From assembly GCA_905234075.1 (NCBI GenBank), contig CAJOGI010000001.1:1-64000 (forward strand): a stretch of DNA of 64,000 nt, written 5' to 3'. This document shows, piece by piece, positions 452 through 62,329 of this stretch (positions are counted from its first letter, which is position 1; every line of letters begins with the position of its first letter). The position numbers and the translations under genes were made by a program. The notes beneath the pieces were generated by a model. That model saw nothing but the letters and a program-made list of their open reading frames with translations, was not told the DNA's origin and ran no database searches. This DNA comes from an uncultured Synergistales bacterium. Lineage in GTDB: Bacteria; Synergistota; Synergistia; Synergistales; Aminobacteriaceae.

Positions 452-482
452 ACTCCTAATTCCTAATTCCTAACTCCTAACT
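452..482 (-). repeat. heptamer repeat copy 1 (four units)
   Basis: On the minus strand: CAGT, then TAGGAGT, TAGGAAT, TAGGAAT, TAGGAGT. It lies just past the stop of the YoaK-like gene. Same family as the copies listed below. Confidence 0.9.
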
Positions 483-486
483 GAAT

Positions 487-1248
487 TTAATGTCCGTGAG
501 GTTTCAAATCTAACATTGCTTTCTCATAAATTAAATCCGAGCGCAGTAAAAATATAAAGCACAAACTCAACGGAACGACGGCGAGCCAAATACTTTTTTC
601 TGCAAAATAACGGCTTGCGAACGTCATGACAGTTCCGCCGAAGAAAAATGCTGAAATAAGTCTCGCGTGCTTCATGGCTTTTGCGCGTGCTTCAGCTTCC
701 TGTTCGTGATGACGGATTACACGCGCAATGCTTATTCCGATTTGTCTCACGTGATTAGTTACAAACGTTGTCGCCATTGGAACGCCCTCTGCCTGTCTGA
801 ACGTGTTAAACTGCATTGAACACAAAAAGCAGATTAAAACCTGCGAAATTTGATCCGGCCACGAGAACGGAATGAGGCCGATGAAGAATAAAATTATTAT
901 TTCAATCCCGACAAGCATAGTGTCCCAGCGTATGAAGTGCGAGCGTCTGACTTTCTGCGGAAGAATTTCCGAAATAATTGTCCCTAATATATACGCAGCG
1001 AACGGAATAAAATAATATAGGGCCTCTAAAAATTCTCCGCTGCTGACCGCCATAGCCATCTTAACTATATTTCCCGTCTGAGCATTGCTGAAAACTCCGC
1101 CGCGCAGGTTGTAAGTGTAAAGCCCCATCATTCCGGCGGCGATCGTCAAAAGTTCAAAGATAAAATATTTTTCGCATGTCAAATAAAATTCCCGGTGCAA
1201 TTCTTTATGAAGTTCTTTATGCTGCTCTGTTGTAAAAATTTCTTTCAT
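487..1248 (-). CDS. YoaK/DUF1275 family integral membrane protein
   Basis: A 253-residue protein with about six hydrophobic helices starting near residue 30. It has the DUF1275 (YoaK) hallmark near residues 48-60, GGVFSNAQTGN followed by IVKMA, where the family has a G-F-x-x-x-Q-T-G-N loop. The family is a small membrane protein group of unsettled transport function. The N-terminus carries a short H/E/K-rich stretch (TEQHKELHKELH). The ATG has an excellent AGGAGG five bases upstream, and that site is the last unit of a heptamer repeat (1251-1284). It follows the helicase gene on the same strand, 30 bases apart, so the two are probably cotranscribed. Family call firm; substrate unknown. Confidence 0.85.
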   Translation of the reverse strand: MKEIFTTEQHKELHKELHREFYLTCEKYFIFELLTIAAGMMGLYTYNLRGGVFSNAQTGNIVKMAMAVSSGEFLEALYYFIPFAAYILGTIISEILPQKVRRSHFIRWDTMLVGIEIIILFFIGLIPFSWPDQISQVLICFLCSMQFNTFRQAEGVPMATTFVTNHVRQIGISIARVIRHHEQEAEARAKAMKHARLISAFFFGGTVMTFASRYFAEKSIWLAVVPLSLCFIFLLRSDLIYEKAMLDLKPHGH

Positions 1249-1250
1249 TC

Positions 1251-1284
1251 TTACCTCCTAACTCCTAATTCCTAACTCCTACCT
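1251..1284 (-). repeat. heptamer repeat copy 2 (four units)
   Basis: Minus strand: CAGG, TAGGAGT, TAGGAAT, TAGGAGT, TAGGAGG, TAA. The first TAG is the stop codon of the helicase gene, and the last AGGAGG is the ribosome-binding site of the YoaK-like gene. Confidence 0.95.
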
Positions 1285-8474: not shown

Positions 8475-8503
8475 TAAACATTAACAGCCTCCGTTAAAGA
8501 AAT

Positions 8504-8515
8504 GGGAGTTAGGAG
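8504..8515 (+). repeat. vestigial heptamer repeat (about two units)
   Basis: GGGAGTTAGGAG in the gap between the two paralogues matches one and a half heptamer units. It is probably a degraded copy of the dispersed repeat. Confidence 0.5.
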
Positions 8516-8525
8516 CAAGTTGAAA

Positions 8526-13982: not shown

Positions 13983-14015
13983 CAGGTAGGAGTTAGGAAG
14001 TAGGAGGTAGGAGTT
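13983..14015 (+). repeat. heptamer repeat copy (four units)
   Basis: CAGG, TAGGAGT, TAGGAAG, TAGGAGG, TAGGAGT, TA, starting six bases after the SAH-hydrolase stop. Its last unit forms half of the terminator stem listed next. Confidence 0.95.
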
Positions 14016-18506: not shown

Positions 18507-18525
18507 AGGTAGGAGTTAGGAGTTA
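18507..18525 (+). repeat. heptamer repeat copy (two units)
   Basis: AGG, TAGGAGT, TAGGAGT, TAAA in the divergent gap between the MATE gene and the NuoL-like gene. This is a short form of the dispersed repeat. Confidence 0.8.
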
Positions 18526-34730: not shown

Positions 34731-34738
34731 TTTATTTT

Positions 34739-36130: not shown

Positions 36131-36142
36131 TTATTGCAATAA
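36131..36142. promoter_or_regulatory. operator-like palindrome between ssnA and ygeX
   Basis: TTATTGCAATAA is a perfect 12-bp palindrome in the middle of the divergent ssnA/ygeX control region, with a further half site TTATTG at 36149-36154 next to the ygeX -35 box. Nine of its twelve bases recur before xdhD (TTGCAATAA, 44597-44605). Confidence 0.5.
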
Positions 36143-36152
36143 AAATTTATTA

Positions 36153-36180
36153 TTGCTTTTTTTATTAAAATCTTTATAAT
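36153..36180 (+). promoter_or_regulatory. promoter of the ygeX operon
   Basis: TTGCTT (36153-36158) and a perfect TATAAT (36175-36180) with 16-base spacing. The same -35 hexamer and spacing occur at the molybdenum operon promoter (57835-57862). Confidence 0.65.
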
Positions 36181-36237
36181 TTGCTTTAATCAAATTCACA
36201 ACAATATAAAAAATTTTTATAACAAAGGGGAAGCAAA

Positions 36238-37434: not shown

Positions 37435-37435
37435 A

Positions 37436-37469
37436 CAGGTAGGAATTAGGAGTTAGGAGGCAGGAGTTA
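37436..37469 (+). repeat. heptamer repeat copy (four units)
   Basis: CAGG, TAGGAAT, TAGGAGT, TAGGAGG, CAGGAGT, TAA, starting one base past the ygeX stop and before ygeY. Confidence 0.95.
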
Positions 37470-37516
37470 AAAGACCTTCTAACTTAAATTTAATAAAAGG
37501 GAGTAAAGAAATTAAA

Positions 37517-38842
37517 ATGGGAAAGTTGACTCAGGAAGAATTAAAAAAGATTAAGGACGCGGCTGAAGGTTACCGCGCCGACATGACGGCATTTTTGCGC
37601 GCAATCGTTAAAAATCCCGGCGAGTCTGCAGGCGAAGCCGCTCACGTTGCGACGATTAAAGCAGAAATGGAAAAAGTAGGATTTGATGAAGTCAGGGTTG
37701 ACCCTCAAGGCAATGTCATGGGCTTCATGGGCAAGGGCTCAACGCTCATTGCCTTTGACGGGCACATTGACACAGTAGGGATCGGCAACCGCGCAAACTG
37801 GAATTTTGACCCTTATGAGGGTTTCGAGAACGATCACGAAATCGGCGGGCGCGGAGTTTCTGACCAGCTTGGCGGAACAGTCAGCGCAGTTTATGCTGCA
37901 AAAATCATGAAGGACTTGGGACTTCTCAACGATAAATATAAAGTCATGGTAGTCGGAACTGTTCAGGAAGAAGACTGCGACGGGCTTTGCTGGGAGTATA
38001 TCTGCAAGGAAGATAAAATCAGGCCGGAGTTTGTCGTATCTTCAGAGCCTACGGACGGCGGACTTTATCGCGGCCAGCGCGGACGCATGGAAATCAGAAT
38101 TGACGTTAAGGGCGTTTCTTGTCATGGCTCGGCACCTGAGCGCGGCGACAATGCAATTTATAAAATGGCCGACATTCTCCGCGATGTTCGTGCGTTAAAC
38201 AACAACGGCGACGCAGAGTCAACAGAGATTAAAGGCCTCGTGAAAATGCTCAATCCTAAATTCAATCCCGAATGGAAAGAAGCAAGATTTTTGGGGCGCG
38301 GAACTGTTACAGCGTCAGAAATTTTCTTCACGTCCCCTTCACGCTGTGCAGTCGCTGACTCTTGCGCGGTATCTCTCGACAGAAGAATGACGGTCGGCGA
38401 GACTTGGGAGTCATGCTTACAGGAAATTAGAGACCTCCCGGCAGTCAAAAAATACGGCGATGATGTAAAAGTCTCAATGTATCACTATGACAGACCGTCA
38501 TATACCGGGCTTGTTTATCCTATTGAGTGCTATTTCCCGACGTGGGTGCTTCCGGCAGATCACAAAGTCTGCAAAGCCGCTGTAGCTGCTTACACTGATT
38601 TATTCGGCGATAAGAGAATCGGCGACGAAGAGACGATCAAAGAGCGCGAAGTCAGACCGCTTTTAGATAAGTGGACGTTCTCAACGAACGGCGTTTCAAT
38701 CATGGGGCGCAACGGTATTCCCGTAATCGGCTTCGGGCCCGGCGCAGAAGCTCAGGCACACGCACCGAACGAAATTACTTGGAAAAACGACCTCGTAACC
38801 TGCGCGGCGTTCTATGCAGCACTTCCGCAGTACTATTGCTAA
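37517..38842 (+). CDS. ygeY: YgeY family selenium-linked M20-type hydrolase
   Basis: A 441-residue metallohydrolase of the M20 peptidase/deacylase superfamily. Metal and catalytic residues: [40 protein letters not shown] (catalytic Glu pair), SSEPTDGG, and the dimerisation-domain motif [18 protein letters not shown]-terminal His ligand is in [11 protein letters not shown]. YgeY is one of the conserved purine-cluster genes and should cleave an amide or ureido bond of a late intermediate; the exact substrate is not established here. Between ygeX and ygeW, with repeats in both gaps. Confidence 0.92.
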
Positions 38843-38844
38843 GT

Positions 38845-38879
38845 AAGGTAGGAGTTAGGAGGTAGGAAGTAGGAGGTAA
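38845..38879 (+). repeat. heptamer repeat copy (four units) with a second C-rich run
   Basis: AAGG, TAGGAGT, TAGGAGG, TAGGAAG, TAGGAGG, TAAA directly after ygeY. A different pyrimidine-rich run with three CTCA/TCAC-type steps (38884-38911) follows before ygeW. Confidence 0.95.
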
Positions 38880-38948
38880 AAAACTCACCCCTCACCACTA
38901 ACTCCTCACTAAAATAAAATCAAAATTAAAGAAAGGAATTTTTTTACG

Positions 38949-40142
38949 ATGGCAAAATTTGAGAAACTCATCAACAAACTTACTTCGCTTCGTTCCGGCA
39001 AAATGTACAACAATGACTTTTTCCTTACATGGGAAAAAACTGATGATGAAATTCAAGCCGTCTGGACGGTTGCCGACGCTCTTAGAAATTTGAGGGAGCG
39101 CAACATTTCAACGAAAGTTTTTGACTCCGGGCTGGGAATTTCTTTGTTCAGAGATAACTCAACGCGCACGAGATTTTCTTTTGCAAGCGCATGCAATCTG
39201 CTTGGCCTCGAAGTTCAGGACTTGGACGAGAAAAAATCACAGGTTGCTCACGGCGAGACGGTCCGCGAAACTGCCAACATGATTTCATTCATGGCTGACG
39301 TTATCGGAATTAGAGACGATATGTATATCGGCAAGGGCAACGCTTACATGCACGAGGTTGCTGACTCTGTCGAAGCAGGCTACAGGGACGGAATTTTGGA
39401 GCAGCGTCCGACGCTCGTAAATTTACAGTGCGACATTGACCACCCGACGCAGTGCATGGCTGACGCTTTACACGTAATTCACGAGTTCGGAGGAATTGAG
39501 AAATTAAAAGGCAAGAAACTTGCTATGACTTGGGCATATTCGCCTTCATACGGCAAGCCTCTTTCAGTGCCGCAGGGCGTTATCGGACTTTTCACGAGAC
39601 TTGGACTCGATGTTACGCTCGCTTATCCTGAAGGCTACGAAGTCATGCCCGACGTTGTCGAAGTTGCAAAGAAGCAGGCTTTTGCGGCCGGAAGCAATTT
39701 CAAAATCACAAACGACATGAAAGACGCTTTCAAAGATGCCGATATAGTTTATCCGAAGTCATGGGCACCGTTCGCGGCAATGGAGAAGCGCACAGTTTTA
39801 TACGGCAACGGCGACGACGCAGGAATTAAAGCCCTTGAAAAAGAACTTTTAGCACAGAACGCCACGCACAAAGACTGGGCTTGCACCGAAGACATGATGA
39901 AGCTCACGAAGAACGGCAGAGCTTTATATCTTCACTGCTTACCGGCGGACATCACCGGCGTTTCATGCGAAGAAGGCGAAGTTGACGGCTCCGTCTTTGA
40001 CCACTACAGGACACCGCTTTACAAACAAGCAAGCTACAAGCCCTATGTAATCGCGGCTATGATTATGCTTGAAAAATTCCCGAACCCTGCAGAAATTCTC
40101 GTGAAACTCAACGAGCGCGGAACGAAAAGGATTTTTGACTAA
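38949..40142 (+). CDS. ygeW: YgeW: knotted carbamoyltransferase
   Basis: A 397-residue member of the aspartate/ornithine carbamoyltransferase superfamily. The carbamoyl-phosphate loop is FRDNSTRTRFSFASA, with HGETVRETANM, then HPTQCMADALHVIHEF and the C-terminal HCLPADITGVSCEEGEVD. These match YgeW, whose substrate is neither aspartate nor ornithine. In purine degradation it would run in the phosphorolytic direction, giving carbamoyl phosphate for the adjacent carbamate kinase and 2,3-diaminopropionate for YgeX (inference). Its stop overlaps the arcC start (TAATG). Confidence 0.94.
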   Translation: MAKFEKLINKLTSLRSGKMYNNDFFLTWEKTDDEIQAVWTVADALRNLRERNISTKVFDSGLGISLFRDNSTRTRFSFASACNLLGLEVQDLDEKKSQVAHGETVRETANMISFMADVIGIRDDMYIGKGNAYMHEVADSVEAGYRDGILEQRPTLVNLQCDIDHPTQCMADALHVIHEFGGIEKLKGKKLAMTWAYSPSYGKPLSVPQGVIGLFTRLGLDVTLAYPEGYEVMPDVVEVAKKQAFAAGSNFKITNDMKDAFKDADIVYPKSWAPFAAMEKRTVLYGNGDDAGIKALEKELLAQNATHKDWACTEDMMKLTKNGRALYLHCLPADITGVSCEEGEVDGSVFDHYRTPLYKQASYKPYVIAAMIMLEKFPNPAEILVKLNERGTKRIFD

Positions 40143-41086
40143 TGTCTGAACATAAAAAAATAGTGCTTGCCTTAGGCGGAAATGCCTTAGGCAATACACT
40201 TCCCGAACAGTTAAAAGCGGCTCAAGTTACCGCAAAGGCCATTGTTGATTTAGTCGATGACGGTCATCAGGTCGTAGTAGTTCACGGCAACGGCCCGCAG
40301 GTCGGAATTATTAACAACGCTATGACGGAGTACTCACAGCATAATAATTCTTTCACCGTTCCTCTTTCTGTATGCGTGGCAATGAGCCAGGCTTATATCG
40401 GCTACGATATTCAGAACGCTCTGCGCGAAGAATTTTTGAACAGAGGTGAAGAACCTCCGGCAATGGCTTCGCTTGTTACCCAAGTAAGAGTTGACCCGGA
40501 AGACCCGGCTTTTACTGCTCCGTCAAAGCCCATCGGAAATTTCATGGCTAAGGACGAGGCACTCAAGGAAGCAGGCGAACGGGGCTGGATAGTTAAAGAG
40601 GACGCAGGGCGCGGTTATCGCCGTGTTGTTGCCTCACCGAAGCCTCAAGAAATTATTGAGTTAAAAGCTATTCGCGCAATGGCTGACTCCGGGCATTTAG
40701 TAATCTGCTGCGGAGGCGGTGGCATTCCCGTTATCTCTCAAGGCAAACACTTGGCAGGAGTTCCTGCGGTAATCGATAAAGATTTGTCGGCTTCATTGTT
40801 AGCTCAGAGCATGGAAGCGGATATGCTTTTAATTTTAACGGCGGTCGAGAAAGTCGCAGTTCATTTCGGCAAGCCCGATCAAAAAGGACTTGACACTATA
40901 ACTATAAAAGAAGCTGAAAAATATATTGCTGACGGTGAATTTGCGCCCGGCTCAATGCTCCCGAAAGTGCAGGCCGGAATTAAGTTCGCCGAGTCCGGCA
41001 GAGGCCGAACAGCCCTCATCACACATCTTCAGAAAGCTCGTGAGGCTTTGAAAGGAAATACGGGTACACGAATCATTAAGGAGTAA
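40142..41086 (+). CDS. arcC: carbamate kinase
   Basis: A 314-residue kinase of the amino-acid kinase fold that makes ATP from carbamoyl phosphate and ADP, releasing carbamate. Motifs: VLALGGNALG, VVVHGNGPQVG, EDAGRGYRRVVASPKP, ICCGGGGIPVI, AVIDKDLSASLLA and FAPGSMLPKVQAGI. Translationally coupled to ygeW by a one-base stop/start overlap, so it provides the energy-yielding step of the pathway. The permease starts four bases after it. Confidence 0.97.
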   Translation: MSEHKKIVLALGGNALGNTLPEQLKAAQVTAKAIVDLVDDGHQVVVVHGNGPQVGIINNAMTEYSQHNNSFTVPLSVCVAMSQAYIGYDIQNALREEFLNRGEEPPAMASLVTQVRVDPEDPAFTAPSKPIGNFMAKDEALKEAGERGWIVKEDAGRGYRRVVASPKPQEIIELKAIRAMADSGHLVICCGGGGIPVISQGKHLAGVPAVIDKDLSASLLAQSMEADMLLILTAVEKVAVHFGKPDQKGLDTITIKEAEKYIADGEFAPGSMLPKVQAGIKFAESGRGRTALITHLQKAREALKGNTGTRIIKE

Positions 41087-41090
41087 TTTA

Positions 41091-42407
41091 ATGAGACGTG
41101 CATCTATTTTTGAATTTGACGGAGTGCCTTCAATCACGGAGGCTCTCCCTTTAGCTTTTCAACATGTTTTGGCAATGATAGCGGGCTGTATAGCTCCGGC
41201 TATTATCGTCGCTAATATGGCTCTTTTGAGTCCAAGTGACAGCACTTTATTAATTCAGTCAGCGTTAGTCATCGCGGCTCTTACAACTTTATTGCAGCTA
41301 TTTCCGATCGGGAAGAAAAACGGCTTCCATATAGGCGCAAAATTGCCCGTCATAATGGGAATTAGTTTTGCCTATGTTCCAAGTATGCAGGCTATAGCGG
41401 TTGACTCTGGAGTCCCTGCGATATTAGGGGCGCAGATTGTCGGCGGAATTGTCGCAATTATTGTCGGACTTTCAGTTAAAAAAATACAAAAATTTTTTCC
41501 GCCGTTAATCACGGGCACAGTGGTTTTTACTATAGGCTTGTCGCTTTATCCCGTTGCTGTTAATTACATGGCCGGAGGAATAGGGAGCCCAACTTACGGT
41601 TCGCCTCTTAACTGGGGGATTGCTCTTTTAACCCTCGCAGTAGTAACGGCTTTCAATCATTTTGCTAAAGGCATTGCAAAATTATCATCAATTTTAATCG
41701 GAATGACAGTCGGCTACATTGCGGCTCTTTTATGCGGAATTGTAGATTTTTCGCCCATTGCAGAGGCTTCGCTTTTTTCACTCCCTAAACCGCTTCACTT
41801 CGGAGTTAAATTTGAAGCTGCCCCCTGCATAGCAATAGGTCTGTTATTTGCGATAAATTCCATTCAAGCTATCGGAGATTTTACGGCAACAACGAGCGGA
41901 GCTATGAATCGTTTTCCGACTGACGAGGAATTAAAAGGCGGCATCGTCGGCTACGGCACTGCAAATATTTTCGGGGCATTAATCGGCGGACTTCCGACGG
42001 CGAGTTTCTCTCAGAATGTCGGCATAGTAACGACCACAAAAGTTATTAACAGATGTGTGCTCGGACTTGCGGCTTTAATTTTATTGACGGCCGGAATAGT
42101 TCCGAAAGTTTCTGCACTGCTTACGACAATTCCGTTATGTGTGCTTGGAGGCGCAACGATTTCTGTCTTTGCGTCTATCTCGATGACGGGACTAAGATTA
42201 ATCGACAAAGAAAAATCAGATTACCGCAACAGTTCTATCGTTGGTCTTTCAGTTGCTCTCGGCATGGGAATTTATCAATATAAGCAGGCTCTTGCGTTAT
42301 TCCCTGCGTGGACGACAACAATTTTCGGGAACAGTCCCGTAGTAGTAGCTACGATTATGGCAATTTTTCTGAATATAATTTTGCCGAAACAAAAAGAAAA
42401 TAATTAG
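41091..42407 (+). CDS. NCS2 family purine/urate permease
   Basis: A 438-residue membrane protein with about 13-14 helices. NCS2 signatures are LPLAFQHVLAMIAGCIAPA near the start, the ATTSGAMNRFPTDEEL loop, and the QNVGIVTTTKVINR motif that lines the substrate site. Likely a proton symporter for xanthine, urate or a related purine. It closes the ygeX-ygeY-ygeW-arcC run and is followed by an intrinsic terminator. The substrate cannot be decided from sequence; a second NCS2 protein lies at 52639-53991. Confidence 0.92.
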   Translation: MRRASIFEFDGVPSITEALPLAFQHVLAMIAGCIAPAIIVANMALLSPSDSTLLIQSALVIAALTTLLQLFPIGKKNGFHIGAKLPVIMGISFAYVPSMQAIAVDSGVPAILGAQIVGGIVAIIVGLSVKKIQKFFPPLITGTVVFTIGLSLYPVAVNYMAGGIGSPTYGSPLNWGIALLTLAVVTAFNHFAKGIAKLSSILIGMTVGYIAALLCGIVDFSPIAEASLFSLPKPLHFGVKFEAAPCIAIGLLFAINSIQAIGDFTATTSGAMNRFPTDEELKGGIVGYGTANIFGALIGGLPTASFSQNVGIVTTTKVINRCVLGLAALILLTAGIVPKVSALLTTIPLCVLGGATISVFASISMTGLRLIDKEKSDYRNSSIVGLSVALGMGIYQYKQALALFPAWTTTIFGNSPVVVATIMAIFLNIILPKQKENN

Positions 42408-42426
42408 AAATTTTTCTAAAATATAA

Positions 42427-42460
42427 CCCGGAGGGCTTAATAAACTTTCCGGGCTTTTTA
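42427..42460 (+). terminator. terminator after the first purine permease
   Basis: CCCGGA (42427-42432) and TCCGGG (42448-42453) with a 15-base loop, followed by CTTTTTAT. A TATAAT at 42461-42466 just behind it may start the next transcript. Confidence 0.75.
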
Positions 42461-42503
42461 TATAATAAAACATAAAAATAATTAATTAAGGAAGGAAAAA
42501 ATT

Positions 42504-43394
42504 TTGAAATATAACGTAATAATTTTATCGTTGCTGATGTGCCTTTTTATTTTTTCATTTAAGGGTGAAGCTGATACCGATTTACAAAAAAATCAAAGCA
42601 TTAATCTTCAAAGCATCGGCAATGCCCGTGAGCTTGGCGGTTATGCTGCGGACAATGGAAGAAAAGTTAAACACGGCGTTCTGTTACGGACTGCAAGCCT
42701 AAATAAAATTTCAAGTGATGACATAGCGCGGCTGACGAAAATTTATAACTTGTCCGTCATAGCAGATTTAAGAATGAGTTTTGAAGCCGCGGCCAAGCCC
42801 GACCCGGTTATAGAAGGCGTTAAATATGTAAATCTGCGCGTCATTGACGAAGAGTTATACATGCGTAAACTCGAAAAAATATTATCAGGTGAAAAAGATC
42901 CTTTTGAAATTCTTAAAATTACAGTTAATAGCGGAATGATAAGCGACAATATTTATATTGATTTTCTGTCGGGAAATTTCGGTAAAAAAGCATACAGCGA
43001 ATTTTTCAAAGAGCTTTTGAATTTGCCGGAAGGACGTTCATTATTATTCCATTGCACGCAAGGCAAAGACCGTACAGGCTGCGCGGCCATGTTAATACTT
43101 TCTGCACTCGGTGTAAGCGAAGATATTATCTTAGAAGATTATATGCTCACGAATATTTTTAACGCCGGTTTAATCGAAAATGACCGCAAAATGCTTCTGT
43201 CTCGCGGAATAAAAGAAGACGAGCTTAAAAAATATATGTTCGTTCTAAATTCCGTAAACATAGAAATGATGACAAATGCTCTTTCATGGCTCAAAGAAAA
43301 TTACGGTTCGCCTGTCGGATATATTATTCATGAGCTTGGGATAAATGAAAATGAAATCGAAAAATTAAAATCGAAATTTCTTGAAAAGGAATAA
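42504..43394 (+). CDS. exported tyrosine/dual-specificity phosphatase
   Basis: A 296-residue phosphatase with an N-terminal signal/anchor (YNVIILSLLMCLFIFSF). The tyrosine-phosphatase signature is complete, HCTQGKDRTG near residue 185 (C-x5-R), with the N-terminal RNARELGGY-like segment IGNARELGGYAADNGR and RTASLNKIS typical of the protein-tyrosine phosphatase/Siw14-like bacterial family. It should act outside the cytoplasm on phosphotyrosine or a phospho-metabolite. Start is TTG with AAGGAAGGA upstream. Next to a STAS-kinase fusion gene and inside the purine island; role there unknown. Confidence 0.85.
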   Translation: MKYNVIILSLLMCLFIFSFKGEADTDLQKNQSINLQSIGNARELGGYAADNGRKVKHGVLLRTASLNKISSDDIARLTKIYNLSVIADLRMSFEAAAKPDPVIEGVKYVNLRVIDEELYMRKLEKILSGEKDPFEILKITVNSGMISDNIYIDFLSGNFGKKAYSEFFKELLNLPEGRSLLFHCTQGKDRTGCAAMLILSALGVSEDIILEDYMLTNIFNAGLIENDRKMLLSRGIKEDELKKYMFVLNSVNIEMMTNALSWLKENYGSPVGYIIHELGINENEIEKLKSKFLEKE

Positions 43395-43400
43395 GTTTTT

Positions 43401-44591
43401 ATGAAAACAGAATTAAAAGATAATGCCCTCACGATTTTTTTAGAGGGACGTTTGGACTCAAACAACGCCGGCGAAATTGAATCGCAAATTACGGAAGCAG
43501 TCTCGCAAAATCCGACAGCTTCAAAAATTCAAATTGACGTTGAAAAACTTGATTATATTTCTTCGGCGGGTCTGCGCGTTCTCTTAAAAATACGCAAGCA
43601 AGTTAAAAAGCCTCTGCCCGTTCTGAACGCTTCAAACGAACTTTACGAAATTTTTAACGTAACGGGCTTCACGGAATTACTTGACGTTCATAAAAAATTG
43701 CGCGAAGTCTCCATAGAAGGCTGCGAAGTCATCGGCGAGGGGGCTAACGGAAAAGTTTACCGCTTAACAAAGGACGAGATTATAAAAGTTTTCAAATACG
43801 GTGCTACTCTTGACAGCGTTGAAGCCGAACGTGAAGCAAGCCGCAAAGCATTTTTGTTGGGCGTGCCCTGTGCTATTGCCTTCGATACCGTTAAATGCGG
43901 AGACAGCTACGGAACTATTTACGAAATGTTAAACGCCGGGACGCTTTCAGAAAGAATTATGGCCGATCATGAAAGACTGCCGGAATTTGCAAAGGCTTCG
44001 GCTTTATTATTAAAACGGCTTCATGAAATTGAAGTGCCTGAAGGACAAATGCCCAGAGCCTCGCGTCTGCTGCATAACACGATTGACAAATTAAACGGAA
44101 TATTTACGCCCGATGAGATTGAAAAAATGCACGCGATTTATAATACAATCCCTGAAAAAAATCATTTCGTTCACAACGATTATCACCCTAAAAATATTAT
44201 GGAGTCAAACGGCGAATTAATGCTCATTGACTTAGGGGACGCAGGCATGGGAAATCCGATTATTGATATTATTCATGACTATTTCGTTTTTAATCTTGTC
44301 GGCAGGGTCTCCGGCCTTTATAAAGTATCTGATGACGACATCGGCTTCATCGGAATAACTTACCGCGATATGAGAGAATTTTGGAAAATTTTTCTTGAAA
44401 CTTATTGCAACGGCGATAATGAAAAAGTCATGAACCTTCAGGAAAAATTAGAGCCGCTTTCTCTGTTAATGTATATGTCAACAGCACTGTCGCACCCGTT
44501 AATGAGTGAAGAAGGGCGCAAGGCGTATATTGAAAAAATGCGCAATTTAGTTTTGTCGCGTTATGACGAACTTGTTAATTATAAATGGTAA
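43401..44591 (+). CDS. STAS domain fused to an aminoglycoside-phosphotransferase-like kinase
   Basis: A 396-residue two-domain protein. Residues 1-100 are a STAS (anti-sigma antagonist) domain: ALTIFLEGRLDSNNAGEIE, IDVEKLDYISSAGLRVLLK (with the Ser that is phosphorylated in SpoIIAA proteins), then VTGFTELLDV. Residues ~108-390 form an APH/choline-kinase-like domain: G-loop IGEGANGKVYRLTKDE, Lys in IIKVFKYG, catalytic HNDYHPKNIM and metal-binding LIDLGDAGMGNP. The combination resembles the paralogous family first noted in Fibrobacter (TIGR02172). Six bases after the phosphatase gene, suggesting a phosphatase-kinase signalling pair. Target unknown. Confidence 0.85.
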   Translation: MKTELKDNALTIFLEGRLDSNNAGEIESQITEAVSQNPTASKIQIDVEKLDYISSAGLRVLLKIRKQVKKPLPVLNASNELYEIFNVTGFTELLDVHKKLREVSIEGCEVIGEGANGKVYRLTKDEIIKVFKYGATLDSVEAEREASRKAFLLGVPCAIAFDTVKCGDSYGTIYEMLNAGTLSERIMADHERLPEFAKASALLLKRLHEIEVPEGQMPRASRLLHNTIDKLNGIFTPDEIEKMHAIYNTIPEKNHFVHNDYHPKNIMESNGELMLIDLGDAGMGNPIIDIIHDYFVFNLVGRVSGLYKVSDDDIGFIGITYRDMREFWKIFLETYCNGDNEKVMNLQEKLEPLSLLMYMSTALSHPLMSEEGRKAYIEKMRNLVLSRYDELVNYKW

Positions 44592-44596
44592 ATAAT

Positions 44597-44605
44597 TTGC
44601 AATAA
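44597..44605. promoter_or_regulatory. TTGCAATAA half-palindrome before xdhD
   Basis: TTGCAATAA in the 37-base gap before xdhD repeats nine of the twelve bases of the ssnA/ygeX palindrome. Candidate shared regulator site. Confidence 0.3.
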
Positions 44606-44628
44606 TTTTTTATAAGGAGCGTGATTTT

Positions 44629-47220
44629 ATGAGCGAGCTTTTTACGATTAAAGTCAATGGCCGTGAAGTTCAGACGGACAAAAATAAAAAATTAATCCGT
44701 TTTCTGCGCGATGATTTAGGCCTGTTATCTGTTAAGGACGGCTGCAGCGAAGGAGCTTGCGGAACTTGTACGATTTTAATGGACGGTCGGCCCGTTCGAG
44801 CCTGTATCATGACGACTAAGCAGGCTGACGGAAAAGAATTAATCACAGTCGAGGGGCTCTCGGATTTTGAGAAAGAAGCCTACGTTTACGCCTTCGGAAA
44901 AGCCGGAGCGGTGCAGTGCGGTTTTTGTACGCCCGGAATGATAATGGCATCGAAGGCTCTTCTAGACACAAATAAAAATCCCAACGAAGAGGACGTTAAA
45001 AAAGCCATTCGCGGAAATCTTTGCAGATGCACGGGATACAAAAAAATTCTCGAAGCTGTTTTGTTAGTTGCGGCAATTTTACGGGGCGATGAAAAAATTG
45101 ATGAAAATCTCGAACGCTCTAATAATTTTTCAGTCGGAGAACACACTTTCAGAAATGATGTCCGCGAAAAAGTTTTAGGCTACGGAAAATATCCTGATGA
45201 CATTTACATGGAAGGAATGCTGCACGGCTCCGCTGTCCGTTCGGCTTATCCGAGAGCAAAAATTCTTGACATCGATACAAGCGAAGCGAAAAAATTGCCC
45301 GGCGTTGTTGATATTTTGACAGCTGATGACGTTCCTAATAATAAGGTCGGACACATTCAGCAGGACTGGGACGTTTTCATAGCTAAAGGAGATATTACGC
45401 GCTGCGTCGGCGATGCTATATGCCTTGTTGTCGGAGAGAGCCGCGAAATTGTCGAAGAGGCTAAGAAATTAGTTAAGATTGATTATGAAGTCTTAACGCC
45501 CGTAAAAAATATTGACGAAGCAAAAGCCCCTGACGCTCCTCAAATTCATGCACACGCAAAGGGTAATTTATGCCAGAGCAGGCATGTTGTAAGAGGCGAC
45601 GCAAAAAAAGCCATCGAAAATTCAAAATACGTTGTAACTCAAACCTACGTAACACCGTTCACTGAACACGCTTTCTTAGAGCCTGAATGCGCCGTAGCTT
45701 TTCCGTATAAAAACGGCGTGAAAATTCTTTCAACGGATCAAGGCACTTACGACACGCGCAAAGAGACCGCAATAATGTTCGGCTGGGAGCCTGAAAGAGT
45801 TGTCGTTGAAAATGCTTTAGTAGGCGGAGGCTTCGGAGGCAAGGAAGATGTTTCTGTTCAGCACTTGGCCGCGCTGGCCGCCGTTAAATTAAACCGCCCC
45901 GTAAAAGTTAAATTGAGCCGTCAGGAAAGCATAAACTTTCACCCGAAACGCCACGCGATGGTCGGGACGTTCACTCTTGGCTGCGACGAGAACGGAATTT
46001 TTACGGGCTTGGACTGCGAAATTAATTTTGATACGGGGGCTTACGCCTCACTCTGCGGACCTGTTCTTGAAAGAGCCTGCACTCACTCCGTCGGGCCGTA
46101 CTGCTATCAAAATACCGACATTCGCGGCTACGGTTACTACACAAATAATCCTCCCGCAGGAGCTTTTAGGGGCTTCGGAGTATGTCAGAGCGAATTTGCA
46201 TTAGAACAAAATATTAACCTGCTCGCTGAAAAAGTCGGAATATCAGCGTGGGAAATTCGTTACAGAAATGCAATAGAGCCCGGAAAAGTTTTGCCAAACG
46301 GTCAAATCGCTGACTGCTCCACCGCGTTGAAAGAAACTTTGTTAGCCGTTAAAGATGTCTATGAAAAAAATAAATCTCACGCCGGAATAGCCTGCGCAAT
46401 GAAAAACGCCGGAGTCGGTGTCGGACTTCCTGACAAAGGACGCGCAAAAATTAAAGTTGAGGACAGCACAGTCTGCCTGTACACTGCCGCAAGCGACATC
46501 GGGCAGGGCTGCTCTACTGTATTCATGCAAATTCTTGAGTCAACGTTAGGACTTCCACGCGACAAAATGAAATTAATGCCGGGCAGCACGGAGACTTCCC
46601 CCGACTCCGGGACGACTTCGGGCTCTCGTCAGACATTAATAACCGGCGAGGCTGTGAGAATGGTCGGAGTAACTTTCAAGAAAGCTCTCGATGAAGCCGG
46701 CGGAGATATTTCAAAATTAGAAGGACAAGAATTTTTTGAAGAGTTCTTTGACCCGACAGACAAGCTGGGAGCAGACAAGCCCAATCCCAAGAGCCATGTT
46801 GCATACGGATTTGCTACTCATGTAGTAATTCTTGACGATAACGGCAAAGTCTCCGAAGTTTACGCAGCGCATGACTCAGGAAAAGTTGTCAACCCCACGT
46901 CCATTCAAGGCCAGATTGAAGGCGGCGTGTTAATGGGGCTCGGCTACGCTTTGACCGAAGATTTTCCGTTAGATAACTGCGTGCCTAAGGCAAAATTCGG
47001 AACGCTGGGCCTTATGCGTGCCACTGACATTCCGAACATTCACGCGATTTACGTTGAAAAAGGTGAGCTTCTGCCGTTCGCTTACGGAGCAAAGGGGATC
47101 GGAGAAATTGCGACAATCCCGACAGCACCGGCCGCCGCAGGAGCGTATTATGCACGTGATAAAGTCTTTCGCTCTAAATTGCCGATGGACGGAACACCTT
47201 ATCGTCCGAAGAAAAAATAG
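44629..47220 (+). CDS. xdhD: selenium-dependent xanthine dehydrogenase, fused Fe-S and Mo subunits
   Basis: An 863-residue molybdenum hydroxylase. The N-terminus holds two 2Fe-2S clusters: plant-type Cys 39, 44, 47, 59, and a helical cluster in VQCGFCTPG and NLCRCTGY. The Mo-binding part starts near 170 (VREKVLGYGKYPDDIYMEG) with VGGGFGGKEDVS, GAFRGFGVCQSEFALEQ, DIGQGCSTVFM and the catalytic Glu in AYGAKGIGEIATIPT. No FAD domain is present. It matches the Se-dependent XDH family (TIGR03311) and E. coli XdhD, in which a labile selenium ligand, not selenocysteine, sits on molybdenum; there is no in-frame TGA. It should hydroxylate xanthine or hypoxanthine, or reduce urate. Its companions yqeB and yqeC follow. 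Confidence 0.93.
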   Translation: MSELFTIKVNGREVQTDKNKKLIRFLRDDLGLLSVKDGCSEGACGTCTILMDGRPVRACIMTTKQADGKELITVEGLSDFEKEAYVYAFGKAGAVQCGFCTPGMIMASKALLDTNKNPNEEDVKKAIRGNLCRCTGYKKILEAVLLVAAILRGDEKIDENLERSNNFSVGEHTFRNDVREKVLGYGKYPDDIYMEGMLHGSAVRSAYPRAKILDIDTSEAKKLPGVVDILTADDVPNNKVGHIQQDWDVFIAKGDITRCVGDAICLVVGESREIVEEAKKLVKIDYEVLTPVKNIDEAKAPDAPQIHAHAKGNLCQSRHVVRGDAKKAIENSKYVVTQTYVTPFTEHAFLEPECAVAFPYKNGVKILSTDQGTYDTRKETAIMFGWEPERVVVENALVGGGFGGKEDVSVQHLAALAAVKLNRPVKVKLSRQESINFHPKRHAMVGTFTLGCDENGIFTGLDCEINFDTGAYASLCGPVLERACTHSVGPYCYQNTDIRGYGYYTNNPPAGAFRGFGVCQSEFALEQNINLLAEKVGISAWEIRYRNAIEPGKVLPNGQIADCSTALKETLLAVKDVYEKNKSHAGIACAMKNAGVGVGLPDKGRAKIKVEDSTVCLYTAASDIGQGCSTVFMQILESTLGLPRDKMKLMPGSTETSPDSGTTSGSRQTLITGEAVRMVGVTFKKALDEAGGDISKLEGQEFFEEFFDPTDKLGADKPNPKSHVAYGFATHVVILDDNGKVSEVYAAHDSGKVVNPTSIQGQIEGGVLMGLGYALTEDFPLDNCVPKAKFGTLGLMRATDIPNIHAIYVEKGELLPFAYGAKGIGEIATIPTAPAAAGAYYARDKVFRSKLPMDGTPYRPKKK

Positions 47221-47226
47221 AAAGTG

Positions 47227-47248
47227 AGGAATTATAGGAATTAGGAAT
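47227..47248 (+). repeat. degenerate heptamer repeat, inverted relative to the next copy
   Basis: AGGAATTA, TAGGAAT, TAGGAAT just after xdhD. It faces the C-rich copy at 47261-47293 across AAACAAAAAA, so the two can form a long hairpin. Confidence 0.7.
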
Positions 47249-47260
47249 GAAAAACAAAAA

Positions 47261-47293
47261 AACTCCTACCTCCTACCTCCTAATTCCTACCTG
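47261..47293 (-). repeat. heptamer repeat copy before yqeB (four units)
   Basis: Minus strand: CAGG, TAGGAAT, TAGGAGG, TAGGAGG, TAGGAGT. It ends six bases before the yqeB ATG and leaves no visible ribosome-binding site. Confidence 0.95.
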
Positions 47294-47298
47294 AAAAA

Positions 47299-48093
47299 AT
47301 GCTTGCATGTATTCGAGGGGCGGGGGATTTAGCTTCCGGGATTGCAGTGAGGCTCTTCCGCTCCAACTTCAAAATTATTATGCTTGACATCGAAAATCCG
47401 ACGACCGTCCGCAGAACTGTGAGTTTCTCTGAGGCTGTCCGTTTGGGAAAAACTTTTGTCGAGGATATTGTCGCATACCGCGCTGAAAATTTTAGCGAGG
47501 CTCTGGAAATCGCAAATAAAAATTCCGTTGCCGTTCTTGTTGACCCTGACGGAAGCGTCATAAAAAATATTGCGCCTGATGTTTTAATTGACGCAATAAT
47601 AGCAAAAAAGAACTTGGGCACAAAAATTAACGATGCTCCGATAGTAATCGGCGTAGGGCCGGGTTTTACGGCCGGGATTGACTGCCATGCTGTAATCGAA
47701 ACGAAACGCGGACACACTTTAGGCCGGGCATTTTATAAGAAAGGTGCGAAGGCTATAAAAAATACCGGCGTTCCAGGAAATATCGGAGGCTATTCAGTTG
47801 AAAGAGTTTTACGAGCTCCGTGCGACGGCGTTATAACTCCCGTTAAGGAAATCGGCGACATAGTCAAAGCCGGAGAAATTGCTGCGACTGTTGATAATAC
47901 TCCGCTATACTGCACGATTGACGGAATGCTGCGCGGAATGTTGGCACCAGGCGTAAAAGTTTTTGAGGGCATGAAAAGCGGCGACATTGACCCAAGAGGC
48001 GCGGAGGTCGATTATTTGAAAGTCTCCGATAAAGCTCTCTCAATCGCCGGCGGAGTTTTAGAAGCAATTTTGCATTTTCATGAAAATAATTAA
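47299..48093 (+). CDS. yqeB: YqeB: selenium-dependent molybdenum cofactor maturation protein
   Basis: A 264-residue protein of the TIGR03309 family found with Se-dependent molybdenum hydroxylases. The N-terminal Rossmann-like fold (IRGAGDLASGIAVRLFRSN) is followed by MLDIENPTTVRRTVSFSEA, VGVGPGFTAGIDCHAVIET and a lipoyl/biotin-like C-terminal half (APCDGVITPVKEIGD, VKAGEIAATV). It probably helps put selenium on the molybdenum of XdhD; the exact reaction is not known. The ATG has no clear ribosome site because a heptamer repeat fills the upstream region. The yqeC start overlaps its end by 14 bases. Confidence 0.93.
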   Translation: MLACIRGAGDLASGIAVRLFRSNFKIIMLDIENPTTVRRTVSFSEAVRLGKTFVEDIVAYRAENFSEALEIANKNSVAVLVDPDGSVIKNIAPDVLIDAIIAKKNLGTKINDAPIVIGVGPGFTAGIDCHAVIETKRGHTLGRAFYKKGAKAIKNTGVPGNIGGYSVERVLRAPCDGVITPVKEIGDIVKAGEIAATVDNTPLYCTIDGMLRGMLAPGVKVFEGMKSGDIDPRGAEVDYLKVSDKALSIAGGVLEAILHFHENN

Positions 48094-49276
48094 CTCCTGC
48101 CTCCTGCCTCCTACTTCCTACTTCCTAACTCCTACCTGTATAGCGGTCGTCGGTGCAGGCGGAAAAAGTACGTTAATCGAAAATTTAGCTGAAAAATTTG
48201 CCGCTGAAAATAAAAAGGTCTGTATCACAACAACGACACATATTTATAAAAATCATGACCGTGAAAATATTTTTTATGCCGGAACGGACGAGGGTGAAAA
48301 GCTTTCTTATCCGGGCGACGAAAATTTTTCACGGCTTTGTGCTTCTTATGACGTTGTTTTAGTTGAGGCTGACGGCTCAAAACATTTCCCGATAAAAATT
48401 CCTAATGAAAACGAGCCTGTTATCCCTTCTAACGTCAATGAAATTTTTGTAGTCATGGGATTAAACGCTCTTGGCCGTCCTGTCGGCGAAGTCTGCCAGC
48501 GTTTCGATAAAGAAAAATTAATTGCAAAATTCCCCGGCATTGACGAAAAATTTTTAGTGAATGACGAGTTAATTAATTTCATTGCAGAAAAATTTTATAT
48601 AAGGCCGCTGAAAAAAAATTTTCCTGACACAAAAATAAATTTTATAAAAAATAATTTTTTATCACTTCCTACCTCCTGCCTCCTAACTCCTAGCTCAAAA
48701 GTTGCTTTGATTTTATTAGCTTCGGGAATGTCAAAACGCTTTGAGGCTGATAAAAATAAACTTTTCTATAAAATTCACGGCAAAGAAATTTTCAGATACG
48801 GCCTTGAGGCTTTAATAAACGCTAAAAAAATTTTGAGTAAAAATAAAATTAATTCCCAAGTTTTTATAACAGGCGGAAATATTAAAGAATATGAGGACGT
48901 AAAAATTATTGACAATCCCGACAGGCTCGAAGGCATCGCAGGCTCAATAAGGCACGGAACAGAAGCCGCGATAAAAAATAATTGTAATGCGGTTTTATTT
49001 TTTGCTGCCGACATGCCGAATTTTCCTGCCGAAGACATAGCAGAACTAGTCCGCGAATTTTTATTCTCAAAAAAATTATGCGGCTGTGCTTTCTCAAATT
49101 ATCCGGCTAATCCCGGAATTTTTGCAGCTTCAATGTATAAAGATTTATTAAAACTTTCGGGCGATACCGGTGCGTTAAAAATTATCAGGAAAAACCCCGA
49201 AAAAACTCATTATTACGTCGTAAGACCCGAAAAACTTTTTGATATTGATATTCTAAACGACACCGCCGATTTTTAA
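48080..49276 (+). CDS. YqeC-MocA fusion protein joined through a translated heptamer repeat
   Basis: A 398-residue fusion. Residues ~20-195 are YqeC (selenium cofactor protein, P-loop-like VVGAGGKSTLIENLAEKF, TTTTHIYKN, VLVEADGSKHFPIK, EVCQRFDKEKL). Residues ~207-395 are a MocA-type cytidylyltransferase/NTP-transferase (LILLASGMSKRFEADKNKL, ITGGNI, FFAADMPNFPAEDIA, NPGIFAASMYKDLL, GDTGALKII). MocA normally moves CMP onto molybdopterin. The first ~18 residues and the inter-domain stretch SLPTSCLLTPSS are both encoded by heptamer repeats (48090-48138, 48664-48696), so each domain has lost its own start and is replaced by repeat-derived sequence. The ATG lies inside the end of yqeB. Confidence 0.88.
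   Translation: MKIINSCLLPPTSYFLTPTCIAVVGAGGKSTLIENLAEKFAAENKKVCITTTTHIYKNHDRENIFYAGTDEGEKLSYPGDENFSRLCASYDVVLVEADGSKHFPIKIPNENEPVIPSNVNEIFVVMGLNALGRPVGEVCQRFDKEKLIAKFPGIDEKFLVNDELINFIAEKFYIRPLKKNFPDTKINFIKNNFLSLPTSCLLTPSSKVALILLASGMSKRFEADKNKLFYKIHGKEIFRYGLEALINAKKILSKNKINSQVFITGGNIKEYEDVKIIDNPDRLEGIAGSIRHGTEAAIKNNCNAVLFFAADMPNFPAEDIAELVREFLFSKKLCGCAFSNYPANPGIFAASMYKDLLKLSGDTGALKIIRKNPEKTHYYVVRPEKLFDIDILNDTADF
48090..48138 (-). repeat. heptamer repeat copy encoding the YqeC N-terminus (six units)
   Basis: Minus strand: CAGG, TAGGAGT, TAGGAAG, TAGGAAG, TAGGAGG, CAGGAGG, CAGGAGT, TA. The longest copy in the window. Open in the fusion frame on the plus strand. Confidence 0.95.
48664..48696 (-). 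repeat. heptamer repeat copy at the YqeC-MocA junction (four units)
   Basis: Minus strand: GAGC, TAGGAGT, TAGGAGG, CAGGAGG, TAGGAAG, T. It lies entirely inside the fused reading frame and marks the domain boundary. Confidence 0.95.
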
Positions 49277-59952: not shown

Positions 59953-60926
59953 AAGATAAATTTTCCCGTGATATAAACTATATGCGAATTTCCGTTACAA
60001 ACCGCTGCAACATGCGATGTAACTATTGTATGCCTGATGTTGTTAAAAATCTTTGCGAGAAAGAAATTTTAACCGATGAAGAAATAATATCAACAGTCAG
60101 AGCGGCAGTTCAATGCGGCATTGTTAAGTTCAAAATAACAGGCGGAGAACCTTTATTGCGTCCCAAAATTACGGAACTTATATACAAATTAAAAAAAATT
60201 TCGGGTGTTGAAAGCCTTAGCATGACAACAAACGGAGTATTGCTCGCAGAAAGTATCAATGAGCTTAAAAACTCCGGCCTTGACGCTGTAAATATTTCGC
60301 TTGATTCTCTAGATACACAACGCTTTGAAAAAATAACGGGCTTTAATTTTCTAAATAAAGTTTTAGATGGAATTGACGCGGCAATTTCTTCAGGTATCCA
60401 CACAAAAATTAACACTGTTCTTCAAAAGGAAATTAATGATGATGAATGGGAAAAAATTTTATTAATTGCTAAAGAAAATCCCGTTTATGTAAGATTTATT
60501 GAGCTTATGCCGATTGGCGAAGGGAAAAATTTTTTTGGTATAAGCAACGCGAAAATTTTGAATGAAATCCGCAAAAAATATCAAGGTATTAAGACTGATT
60601 CTTACGTTCACGGCAACGGTCCGGCAGTTTATATAAAAATTCCGGGATTTTTTGGCGGTGTCGGCTTTATCAGCGCGATGTGCGGAAAATTTTGCTCTTC
60701 ATGCAATAGATTGAGGCTTACTGCGCAAGGAAAATTAAAGCCGTGTCTGTCTTTTTCAGATTATCTTGACGTTAGGGAAATTTTGAGAAGCAGTGAAAAA
60801 AATTTAATCCAGATAAAATTGGAAAATCTTATCAAAAAAGCTATTGAAATGAAACCGCGTGAACATTGCTTTGAAACGCCGGTTAAAAATTCAGAAACCC
60901 TGCGAATGTTCGAGATTGGAGGCTGA
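59949..60926 (+). CDS. moaA: GTP 3',8-cyclase MoaA
   Basis: A 325-residue radical-SAM enzyme that starts molybdopterin synthesis from GTP. The SAM cluster is Cys 20, 24, 27 (NRCNMRCNYCMPD); KFKITGGEPLLRP, MTTNGVLL and NISLDSLD follow. The C-terminal substrate cluster is CGKFCSSCNRLRLTAQGKLKPCL, written here as its parts CGKFCSSC and KLKPCL, and the protein ends in the required Gly-Gly (EIGG). The ATG overlaps the XdhC-type stop by four bases. moaC follows. Confidence 0.96.
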   Translation: MKDKFSRDINYMRISVTNRCNMRCNYCMPDVVKNLCEKEILTDEEIISTVRAAVQCGIVKFKITGGEPLLRPKITELIYKLKKISGVESLSMTTNGVLLAESINELKNSGLDAVNISLDSLDTQRFEKITGFNFLNKVLDGIDAAISSGIHTKINTVLQKEINDDEWEKILLIAKENPVYVRFIELMPIGEGKNFFGISNAKILNEIRKKYQGIKTDSYVHGNGPAVYIKIPGFFGGVGFISAMCGKFCSSCNRLRLTAQGKLKPCLSFSDYLDVREILRSSEKNLIQIKLENLIKKAIEMKPREHCFETPVKNSETLRMFEIGG

Positions 60927-60930
60927 AATT

Positions 60931-61425
60931 TTGGAAGATTTCACACATTTTGATGATAAAGGTCGCGCACGTATGGTGGACGTTCACGAAAAAAATATTA
61001 CCCAAAGAAAAGCTGTAGCTGCCGCGAAGGTTTTGGTAAATCGTGAAACTTTTGAATTAATAAAAACAGGCGGGATTAAAAAGGGCGATGTTCTGACTGT
61101 TGCTCAGATTGCCGGAATAATGGGGGCAAAACGAACGCCGGATTTAATACCAATGTGCCACCCAATTTTTATTGAGGGCGTTAATTTAAGTTTGTCGCTC
61201 GATGAAGAAAATTTTTCGGTTGAAATTTTGGCTGAAGTTCACTGCGAAGGTAAAACAGGCGTGGAAATGGAGGCTCTAACTGCGGCGGCGGTCGCGGCTC
61301 TCACAGTTTACGACATGTGCAAAGCAGTACAAAGAGATATAATTATTCAAGATATTTATTTAGTGAGCAAGACAGGAGGTTCACATGGAGATTATCACAG
61401 CGGCAGTAATTACTGTCAGCGATAA
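60931..61425 (+). CDS. moaC: cyclic pyranopterin monophosphate synthase MoaC
   Basis: A 164-residue enzyme completing cPMP formation after MoaA. Conserved: FTHFDDKGRARMVDVHEK, AQIAGIMGAKRTPDLIPMC (then HP), EVHCEGKTGVEMEALTA and VYDMCKAVQRDI. I start at TTG 60931 because GGAGG at 60918-60922 is eight bases upstream and the length then fits the family; the frame is open further into moaA but without a ribosome site. Its end overlaps the Mog-MOSC gene by 41 bases. Confidence 0.95.
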   Translation: MEDFTHFDDKGRARMVDVHEKNITQRKAVAAAKVLVNRETFELIKTGGIKKGDVLTVAQIAGIMGAKRTPDLIPMCHPIFIEGVNLSLSLDEENFSVEILAEVHCEGKTGVEMEALTAAAVAALTVYDMCKAVQRDIIIQDIYLVSKTGGSHGDYHSGSNYCQR

Positions 61426-62323
61426 AGGCTTCAAAGGCGAACGGGAAGATACAAGCGGCCCAGCTCTCAAAGAAATGTTAGAGGCAGACGGCTGGAAAGT
61501 TGTTTACACAAATATTATTCCTGATGAACGCGAAAAAATTAAAAGCGAGTTGGTAAAATGTGCAGATGAATTGAAAATTAATTTAGTCTTGACCACAGGA
61601 GGCACAGGATTTTCTCCGCGTGATGTAACGCCCGAAGCAACTTTGAATATTATCGAACGCCGTGCGCCCGGCATACCCGAAGCAATGAGAGCGGAGAGCA
61701 TGAAAATTACTCAGCGTGCTTGTCTTTCACGCGAAGAGGCTGGAATTAGAAAGCAGACTTTAATAATTAATCTTCCGGGAAGCAAAAAAGCCGCTACAGA
61801 AAATTTTTCTGCTGTCATAAATGCAGTGAGGCACGGTGTAGAAATGATTAACTCTTTCGGCTCGGCGGACTGCGCTGAACAAATAGGAAAAATTTTATCC
61901 GTCAACATCAGCGAAAAAAAAGGTACACCAAAGCACCCCGTAGATAAAATTATAATGAAGCCTAATCTCGGCATTGTCGGCGATGCTCACGCAGGAAACT
62001 GGCACAGGCAAATTAGCTTATTGGGAGGTGAGAGCGTACAAAAAGCACAAAAAAATTTGTCTGTTAATTTAGCTCCGGGCGATTTTGCTGAAAATATTTT
62101 AATCGAGGGAATTTGTTTATATAAATTACCAGTCGGTACACGCTTGAAAATTGGTACGGCATTGTGTGAAGTAACTCAGATCGGCAAAGAATGCCACTCT
62201 GATTGCGCAATTCGCAAATTAACGGGCGATTGCGTTATGCCGCGTGAGGGGGTTTTTGCAAAGGTTCTCGAGGCGGGCGAAGCTAAAGCAGGAGACTTTG
62301 TTCAGGTAGGAGTTAGGAATTAG
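61385..62323 (+). CDS. MogA/MoaB-MOSC fusion protein
   Basis: A 312-residue fusion. Residues 1-~160 are a MogA/MoaB molybdopterin adenylyltransferase (TAAVITVSDKGFKGEREDTS, VLTTGGTGFSPRDVTPEAT, IINLPGSKKA). Residues ~165-312 are a MOSC domain (GIVGDAHAGNWHRQISLL, LAPGDFAENILIEG, IGKECHSDCAIRKLTGDC, MPREGVFAKVL). MogA adenylates molybdopterin before molybdenum insertion; MOSC domains relate to Moco sulfurase C-termini and may carry sulfur or here selenium (inference). GAGG lies six bases before the ATG. The last residues (QVGVRN) and the stop come from a heptamer repeat. Confidence 0.92.
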   Translation: MEIITAAVITVSDKGFKGEREDTSGPALKEMLEADGWKVVYTNIIPDEREKIKSELVKCADELKINLVLTTGGTGFSPRDVTPEATLNIIERRAPGIPEAMRAESMKITQRACLSREEAGIRKQTLIINLPGSKKAATENFSAVINAVRHGVEMINSFGSADCAEQIGKILSVNISEKKGTPKHPVDKIIMKPNLGIVGDAHAGNWHRQISLLGGESVQKAQKNLSVNLAPGDFAENILIEGICLYKLPVGTRLKIGTALCEVTQIGKECHSDCAIRKLTGDCVMPREGVFAKVLEAGEAKAGDFVQVGVRN

Positions 62324-62329
62324 GAGGTA
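62303..62329 (+). repeat. heptamer repeat copy between Mog-MOSC and modA (three units)
   Basis: CAGG, TAGGAGT, TAGGAAT, TAGGAGG, TAA. It supplies the last six residues and the TAG stop of the Mog-MOSC gene and the AGGAGG ribosome site of modA. Confidence 0.95.

Follow-up and report, generated by a model that had tools for sequence, protein, structure and literature searches.

TAGGARK heptamer arrays at gene junctions of a Synergistales genome: a dispersed repeat with recent four-unit gains

The short tandemly repeated heptamers (STRR) of cyanobacteria are dispersed arrays in intergenic DNA, with a unit that differs from the one described here, TAGGARK. Miniature inverted-repeat transposable elements (MITEs) and REP/RAYT-type palindromic elements are also small, dispersed, and intergenic, and they consist of inverted repeats with a possible target duplication. 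G-rich heptamers, GGGAATC and GGGGA(C/T)T, with a mode of four units and a placement at gene edges, have been described in Xanthomonas and Nostoc (Rehm et al. 2015, PMC4692102), while MacGregor 2015 (PMC4679880) describes about 170 sets of two to six TAACTGA direct repeats in Beggiatoaceae, Cyanobacteria, and Bacteroidetes. Four-unit heptamer arrays are on record from several groups of bacteria, with neither their origin nor their function explained. Here, we analyze a window of 64,000 nt (contig CAJOGI010000001.1, positions 1 to 64,000) from an uncultured Synergistales bacterium, a rumen-type Synergistaceae, in which a first-pass annotation had listed about 16 copies of a TAGGARK array; all of these are present in the sequence at the places given. 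We favor, with some reserve, the interpretation that the arrays belong to a non-autonomous repeat element that is dispersed and was active recently.

The pattern is far more frequent than expected by chance. Two-unit TAGGARK matches number 50 in the window as against 2.7 expected by shuffling, and none of 100 shuffles reached 50. The genome-wide scan proposed in the first-pass annotation gave 298 three-unit matches in 1.84 Mb and none for the reversed pattern. The period is specific as well, with 11 arrays per 100 kb at period 7 and at most 1.5 at every other short period from 4 to 13. Within the sampled 764 kb of the window genome (G000), which hold 121 arrays, four units are present in 81 arrays and five in only 4; in the relative G007, which shares about 94% DNA identity over the aligned parts, 52 of 105 arrays have four. 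The consensus, read from a position table of 63 arrays, has a sharp 5' edge of (C)AGG, with A in 95%, G in 87%, and G in 75% at positions -3 to -1 and C in 62% at -4, whereas the other side is marked by T at +28 in 79% and by A/T-rich sequence beyond. The degeneracy of the heptamer is not uniform, the last base being T in 89% of first units and G in 71% of third units.

Five arrays of the window genome are absent from G007 and from outgroups, and all five have exactly four units. Because these sites are empty in a 94%-identical relative as well as in outgroups, the five arrays are new gains, and the comparison of orthologous junctions that the first-pass annotation had suggested thereby gives a polarity: occupied here, empty in the sister and beyond. 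The gain at window position 34702 (AGG plus four units, 34,699–34,729, forward strand) is empty in G007 and in the outgroup G033 and is flanked by 8-nt AT-rich repeats, TTTATTTT. The array at C2:203348, empty in G007, G008, G020, G025, G009, and G033, lies between 10-nt direct repeats that duplicate a unique sequence, TGCGCGGAAT; this repeat spans the first codons of the next gene and re-creates its start. The other three sites are C2:47470 (empty in G007 and six others), the infC–rpmI junction at C2:79337 (empty in G007, G065, G025, G020, and G033), and a pilin junction at C3:83194 (empty in G007, G014, G008, G065, G020, and G033). Different, independent arrays are found at two of these junctions in relatives, namely an array in G014 at infC–rpmI and a facing pair in G025 at the pilin junction. 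No clear duplication is seen at these three gains, where the surrounding sequence is altered too. In the selenium/purine cluster of the window (30.2–49.3 kb), seven array-bearing places lack their array in one or both of the non-carriers G033 and G063, in which the genes abut or overlap where G000 has arrays.

At several array junctions, gene ends are replaced and not merely split. This would be expected if breaks or stalled forks at junctions were patched by copying a heptamer template, through template switching or a reverse transcriptase, since such filling would yield arrays with flanking duplications and a loss of local sequence. The variable 5' joins (GAGT and AAGT beside CAGG) fit microhomology joining, and the G-rich strand heads outward from both gene edges, as this explanation would have it. 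However, the four-unit length and the CAGG boundary are fixed in most copies, and the preferred arm order in Clostridia (below) points to the copying of whole elements; we therefore consider repair filling unlikely.

Arrays also change after they arrive. Orthologous flanks are present in G007 for 53 arrays of at least three units: the unit number is unchanged in 23 and different in 12, and the other 18 are unrecognized by our strict array criterion, some of these being merely degenerate and some absent. The 12 differing arrays indicate that slippage acts after arrival. The first-pass annotation had taken the constant unit number to mean dispersal of a whole element rather than slippage; dispersal in four-unit form is borne out, whereas the absence of slippage is not. 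Slippage could in principle account for the arrays altogether, as simple-sequence repeats grown by the polymerase from seeds that combine a stop codon with a Shine–Dalgarno sequence, such as TAAGGAGG, given that TAGGAGG is a TAG stop overlapping AGGAGG and that unit numbers do differ between orthologues. Yet unit numbers have their maximum at four and drop sharply at five (81 versus 4), the new arrays were all of four units, and array-less junctions in relatives often have no seed, which makes such an origin very improbable.

Between relatives, positions T1, R6, and K7 differ at 24 of 225 sites and the core AGGA at 6 of 298, with an intergenic background of 5.6%. The core rate is weak evidence of constraint because the arrays were picked by their consensus in one genome, and this ascertainment likewise weakens core constraint as a proof of function. 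A more conserved core would nevertheless be expected if the arrays were four-tract G-quadruplex elements that selection maintains because they act as regulators in the 3' or 5' regions of mRNAs. Such a role has been proposed for the heptamers of Xanthomonas and Nostoc, whose four-unit mode and strand-specific placement at gene edges are matched here. With three or more units, the consensus array is predicted to fold into an RNA quadruplex of two layers. Against this, a quadruplex is predicted for only 33 of 81 four-unit arrays and not for TAGGAAT-type arrays, which removes it as a universal property of the arrays; moreover, core constraint is not clearly under the neutral rate after allowing for ascertainment, most arrays of the selenium cluster were inserted recently, into junctions able to function without them, and some arrays lie in frame within proteins. 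Selection for quadruplexes thus seems an unlikely explanation.

The placement of the arrays follows the genes closely. Our gene calls are simple open reading frame calls, in which start codons are uncertain and stop codons are not. Of 65 arrays of at least three units with a same-strand gene on the 5' side, 64 begin no more than 16 nt from the stop codon of that gene, and arrays near stop codons are sense in 66 cases and antisense in 8 (p about 2e-12); in 22 cases, the array itself provides the stop codon. Arrays antisense to the neighboring gene start 9–141 nt upstream of its start codon. With sense arrays behind stops and antisense arrays before starts, the G-rich strand leads outward from genes. 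Divergent spacers hold 28% of intergenic bases but only 7 arrays. As a matter of arithmetic, TAG is present in all three frames of a sense array with at least three units, so that such an array can end a gene wherever it has landed. Antisense arrays can remain open, and several copies in the window lie inside reading frames instead of between co-directional genes, where the first-pass annotation had placed most of them. At 27,717–27,747 (reverse strand), AGG plus four antisense units are open in frame at the N terminus of Dus and read MKIPNTSYLLPPNSYLK; at 48,093–48,138 (reverse), CAGG plus six antisense units, with no array in G033 or G063, are open at the N terminus of a YqeC-like protein and read MKIINSCLLPPTSYFLTPT; and at 48,665–48,692 (reverse), four antisense units form part of the linker joining the YqeC and NTP-transferase domains of a fusion. 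Elsewhere, a dynamin-like GTPase-type protein (L091, 9809–11,995) carries the array-encoded peptides ITSCLLPPNACLLPPASCLLPPTSY and EEVGGRREELGG, and in the array encoding the latter, the unit that would yield an in-frame TAG reads GAG. Three heptamer arrays encode peptides of this protein, LLPP repeats among them. We also considered the arrays as working Shine–Dalgarno sites, but most sense arrays are too distant from the next start. Survival rather than targeting may set the placement.

A part of the arrays is paired. For 25 of 103 arrays, a facing C-rich array follows within 90 nt on the 3' side, whereas none is found on the 5' side or in a distant control; at a looser score, 43 of 103 have such a partner on the 3' side, as against 0 on the 5' side and 4 in shuffles. 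In the genomes of the rumen Clostridia G079 and G082, all but 3 of the 37 arrays belong to facing pairs. The pairs make up inverted-repeat elements, most of them 105–130 bp long, with an interior of about 50–67 nt whose ends recur. Four units are present in 33 of these 37 arrays, and about half of the parsed elements share a preferred unit order in the two arms. The folding energy predicted for facing pairs is -42.7 kcal/mol, whereas shuffled sequences average -12.7 kcal/mol. The pairs lie behind stop codons, where such hairpins could serve as transcription terminators or mRNA 3'-end stabilizers. But a recognizable C-arm is present in fewer than half of the arrays, many arrays lie within operons or genes, and the ancestral state of the junctions is empty, all of which leaves this role highly improbable as an explanation of the arrays. 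Two further observations concern pairing and palindromes. A contig filed as viral in IMG/VR (L341, 4125–4250) has a facing pair of four-unit arrays, and eight further contigs filed there have one array each. In relatives, a short GC-rich palindrome, CCTGCC...GGCAGG, lies inside heptamer arrays or replaces them, as if it were a second, nested element (L230 7075–7172 and 14,237–14,304 in contig C32 of G007; L119 in G025).

Gains, births at four units, gene-edge placement, pairing, and decay are thus seen directly in these genomes, and the patchy host range also speaks for mobility. If the arrays are a non-autonomous mobile element, the cassette that arrives at a new site would be a complete arm, (C)AGG(TAGGARK)4T, sometimes with a facing C-rich arm; because that arm sometimes arrives together with the first, the full form would be a hairpin consisting of a G-arm, an AT-rich loop, and a C-arm. 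New copies would enter compact, often overlapping gene junctions, mostly landing in sense just behind a stop codon and otherwise antisense just before a start codon, and at least one gain duplicated a short target. A single trans-acting enzyme presumably inserts them. Copies may then persist at gene junctions because at least three TAG heptamers stop all frames and translation can run through the C-rich strand without a stop. Later they decay through substitutions and through whole heptamers being gained or lost.

Several points weigh against this mobile-element interpretation. The Y1/RAYT family (PF01797) has no match in the complete G000 and G007, where no other enzyme family was searched for, and we accordingly reject a RAYT/IS200-type transposase as the mover. 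Neither an autonomous parent nor a transposase was found in the arrays examined, and the mobile partner that the first-pass annotation had expected near a complete version was not found encoded either, PF01797 being the only family sought in both cases. Target duplication is convincing at one of five gains, array length also varies by whole units, and a facing arm is missing from most of the five gains, which means that the hairpin is not obligatory. Even so, the gains polarized by outgroups are complete, four-unit, and mostly at stop-codon junctions, one of them with a target duplication, and they offer a direct view of how bacterial heptamer repeats arise. The repeats split overlapping genes, provide stop codons, and add in-frame N-terminal peptides. 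An old descriptive puzzle becomes a testable question, namely which activity inserts a 31-nt cassette at stop-codon junctions.

The remaining copies in the window illustrate the range of states. The automated count finds ten arrays with exactly four units (452, 13987, 26881, 27717, 31681, 34702, 37440, 38849, 47262, and 48665), compared with eleven reported at first; the one at 1247 has four units and a degenerate fifth, while six units are counted at 48093, three at 62307 (the fourth decayed), two each at 18510 and 47235, and a vestige at 8503. On the reverse strand, a four-unit array with the prefix CAGT lies at 452–479, and the CAGG-prefixed array at 1247–1284 supplies the stop codon of the 1279–4734 gene, starting there. 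Forward copies are the vestige (8503–8516), CAGG plus four units about 10 nt past the adenosylhomocysteinase stop codon (13,983–14,014), AGG plus two units between divergent genes (18,507–18,523), AAGG plus four units behind the stop of the 25,653–26,876 gene, at a junction that is compact in most relatives (26,877–26,908), and CAGG plus three units at a stop codon where G007 has four (62,303–62,334). Within the selenium cluster, AGG plus four units give the YgfK gene its stop (31,681–31,711, reverse), where G033 is without the array and G007 is rewritten. Two forward arrays that are missing from both G033 and G063 follow, CAGG plus four units behind the diaminopropionate ammonia-lyase stop (37,436–37,467) and AGG plus four units behind the YgeY stop (38,846–38,876), the latter replaced in G007. 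A two-unit arm (47,235–47,248, forward) faces CAGG plus four units (47,262–47,293, reverse) where genes overlap in G033. Rfam families matched only two tRNAs in the window, with no match at the arrays.

Two neighboring features are worth recording. A second dispersed repeat, AT-rich and about 155–190 nt long, lies just downstream of a tRNA (30,104–30,291); G007 has dozens of copies of it and G020 several. The selenium-linked purine/diaminopropionate gene cluster itself occupies 30,267–49,276. For one of its genes, high-identity matches are limited to 4 of 41 genus genomes (G000, G007, G063, and G033), and this distribution suggests that the cluster was acquired horizontally, before the arrays entered.

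Carriers are few among close relatives and scattered beyond them. A first search found the pattern in 5 of 37 genus genomes, including the window genome, with G065 found later as a sixth carrier; a longer, AGG-prefixed pattern matches 4 of 188 phylum genomes, every one in the genus of the window genome. In a three-protein tree, four carriers fall into one fully supported clade of five species, whose fifth member, G020, has no three-unit match. Other phyla also have the 34-base form: it is present in rumen Clostridia, in one member each of the Selenomonadales and the Alphaproteobacteria, and in scattered others, with 2 to over 300 three-unit matches per non-Synergistota carrier genome. Some of these outside matches (Bacteroidales and Sulfurovum, for example) are long arrays of the slippage type and may be unrelated. 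The idea of species-specific heptamers throughout the genus was discarded, as a TAGTGRT array in G004 is isolated, with three overlapping matches in 1 of 43 genomes; for a search with AGGANNN, the reversed control is useless, AGGA being identical backwards. G004 also has (GATTAGT)5 (L137) at the same junction as window position 26881, and long AGGAGTC arrays are present in L247 of G017. It is conceivable, albeit doubtful, that the heptamer arrays of distant bacteria (Synergistota, rumen Clostridia, and others) stem from a single undescribed mobile system, which would spread horizontally and place a fixed cassette of four heptamers at junctions where translation stops, with the classic STRR-type heptamers as relics of such systems. 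The Nostoc heptamer is probably identical with the cyanobacterial STRR.

Comparing the arrays with MITE and REP/RAYT elements, the arms here are tandem heptamers, and no RAYT match is present in G000 or G007. Terminal inverted repeats of the MITE type are clear in Clostridia, whereas a facing arm accompanies a quarter to under half of the G000 arrays. The flanking repeats measure 10 nt at C2:203348 and 8 AT-rich nt at 34702, with none clear at the three other gains. The TAACTGA repeats are also intergenic, contain a stop codon in the unit, and are patchy across distant phyla. However, in Beggiatoa most of them precede a start codon by a few nucleotides, whereas TAGGARK arrays lie behind stop codons; both unit and position therefore differ from the sense units just upstream of starts that mark TAACTGA repeats, and the part of PMC4679880 used here reports neither a four-unit mode nor facing pairs. 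A literature search on the unit TAGGAGT gave nothing relevant among the ten best-ranked of 98 papers. The first-pass annotation had seen a likeness to cyanobacterial heptamers without knowing a described family. The likeness was apt, as the Nostoc heptamers share the four-unit mode and gene-edge placement, and a described kind does exist in the G-rich heptamers of PMC4692102. Like TAGGARK arrays, these have a four-unit mode, are intergenic, and stand in sense just after stops or antisense just before starts; similarly, facing inverted pairs are frequent, copies are scarce between divergent genes, and length varies between relatives. They differ in having GGG(G) runs, whereas TAGGARK has only GG tracts, the two-layer quadruplex being predicted for the 33 of 81 four-unit arrays given above. 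Unlike them, TAGGARK arrays show a strong sense bias at stop codons and gains polarized with outgroups, and within the phylum they are confined to a single genus, with further carriers scattered among other phyla. The G-rich four-unit heptamers of Xanthomonas and Nostoc are the closest known kind to the TAGGARK arrays.

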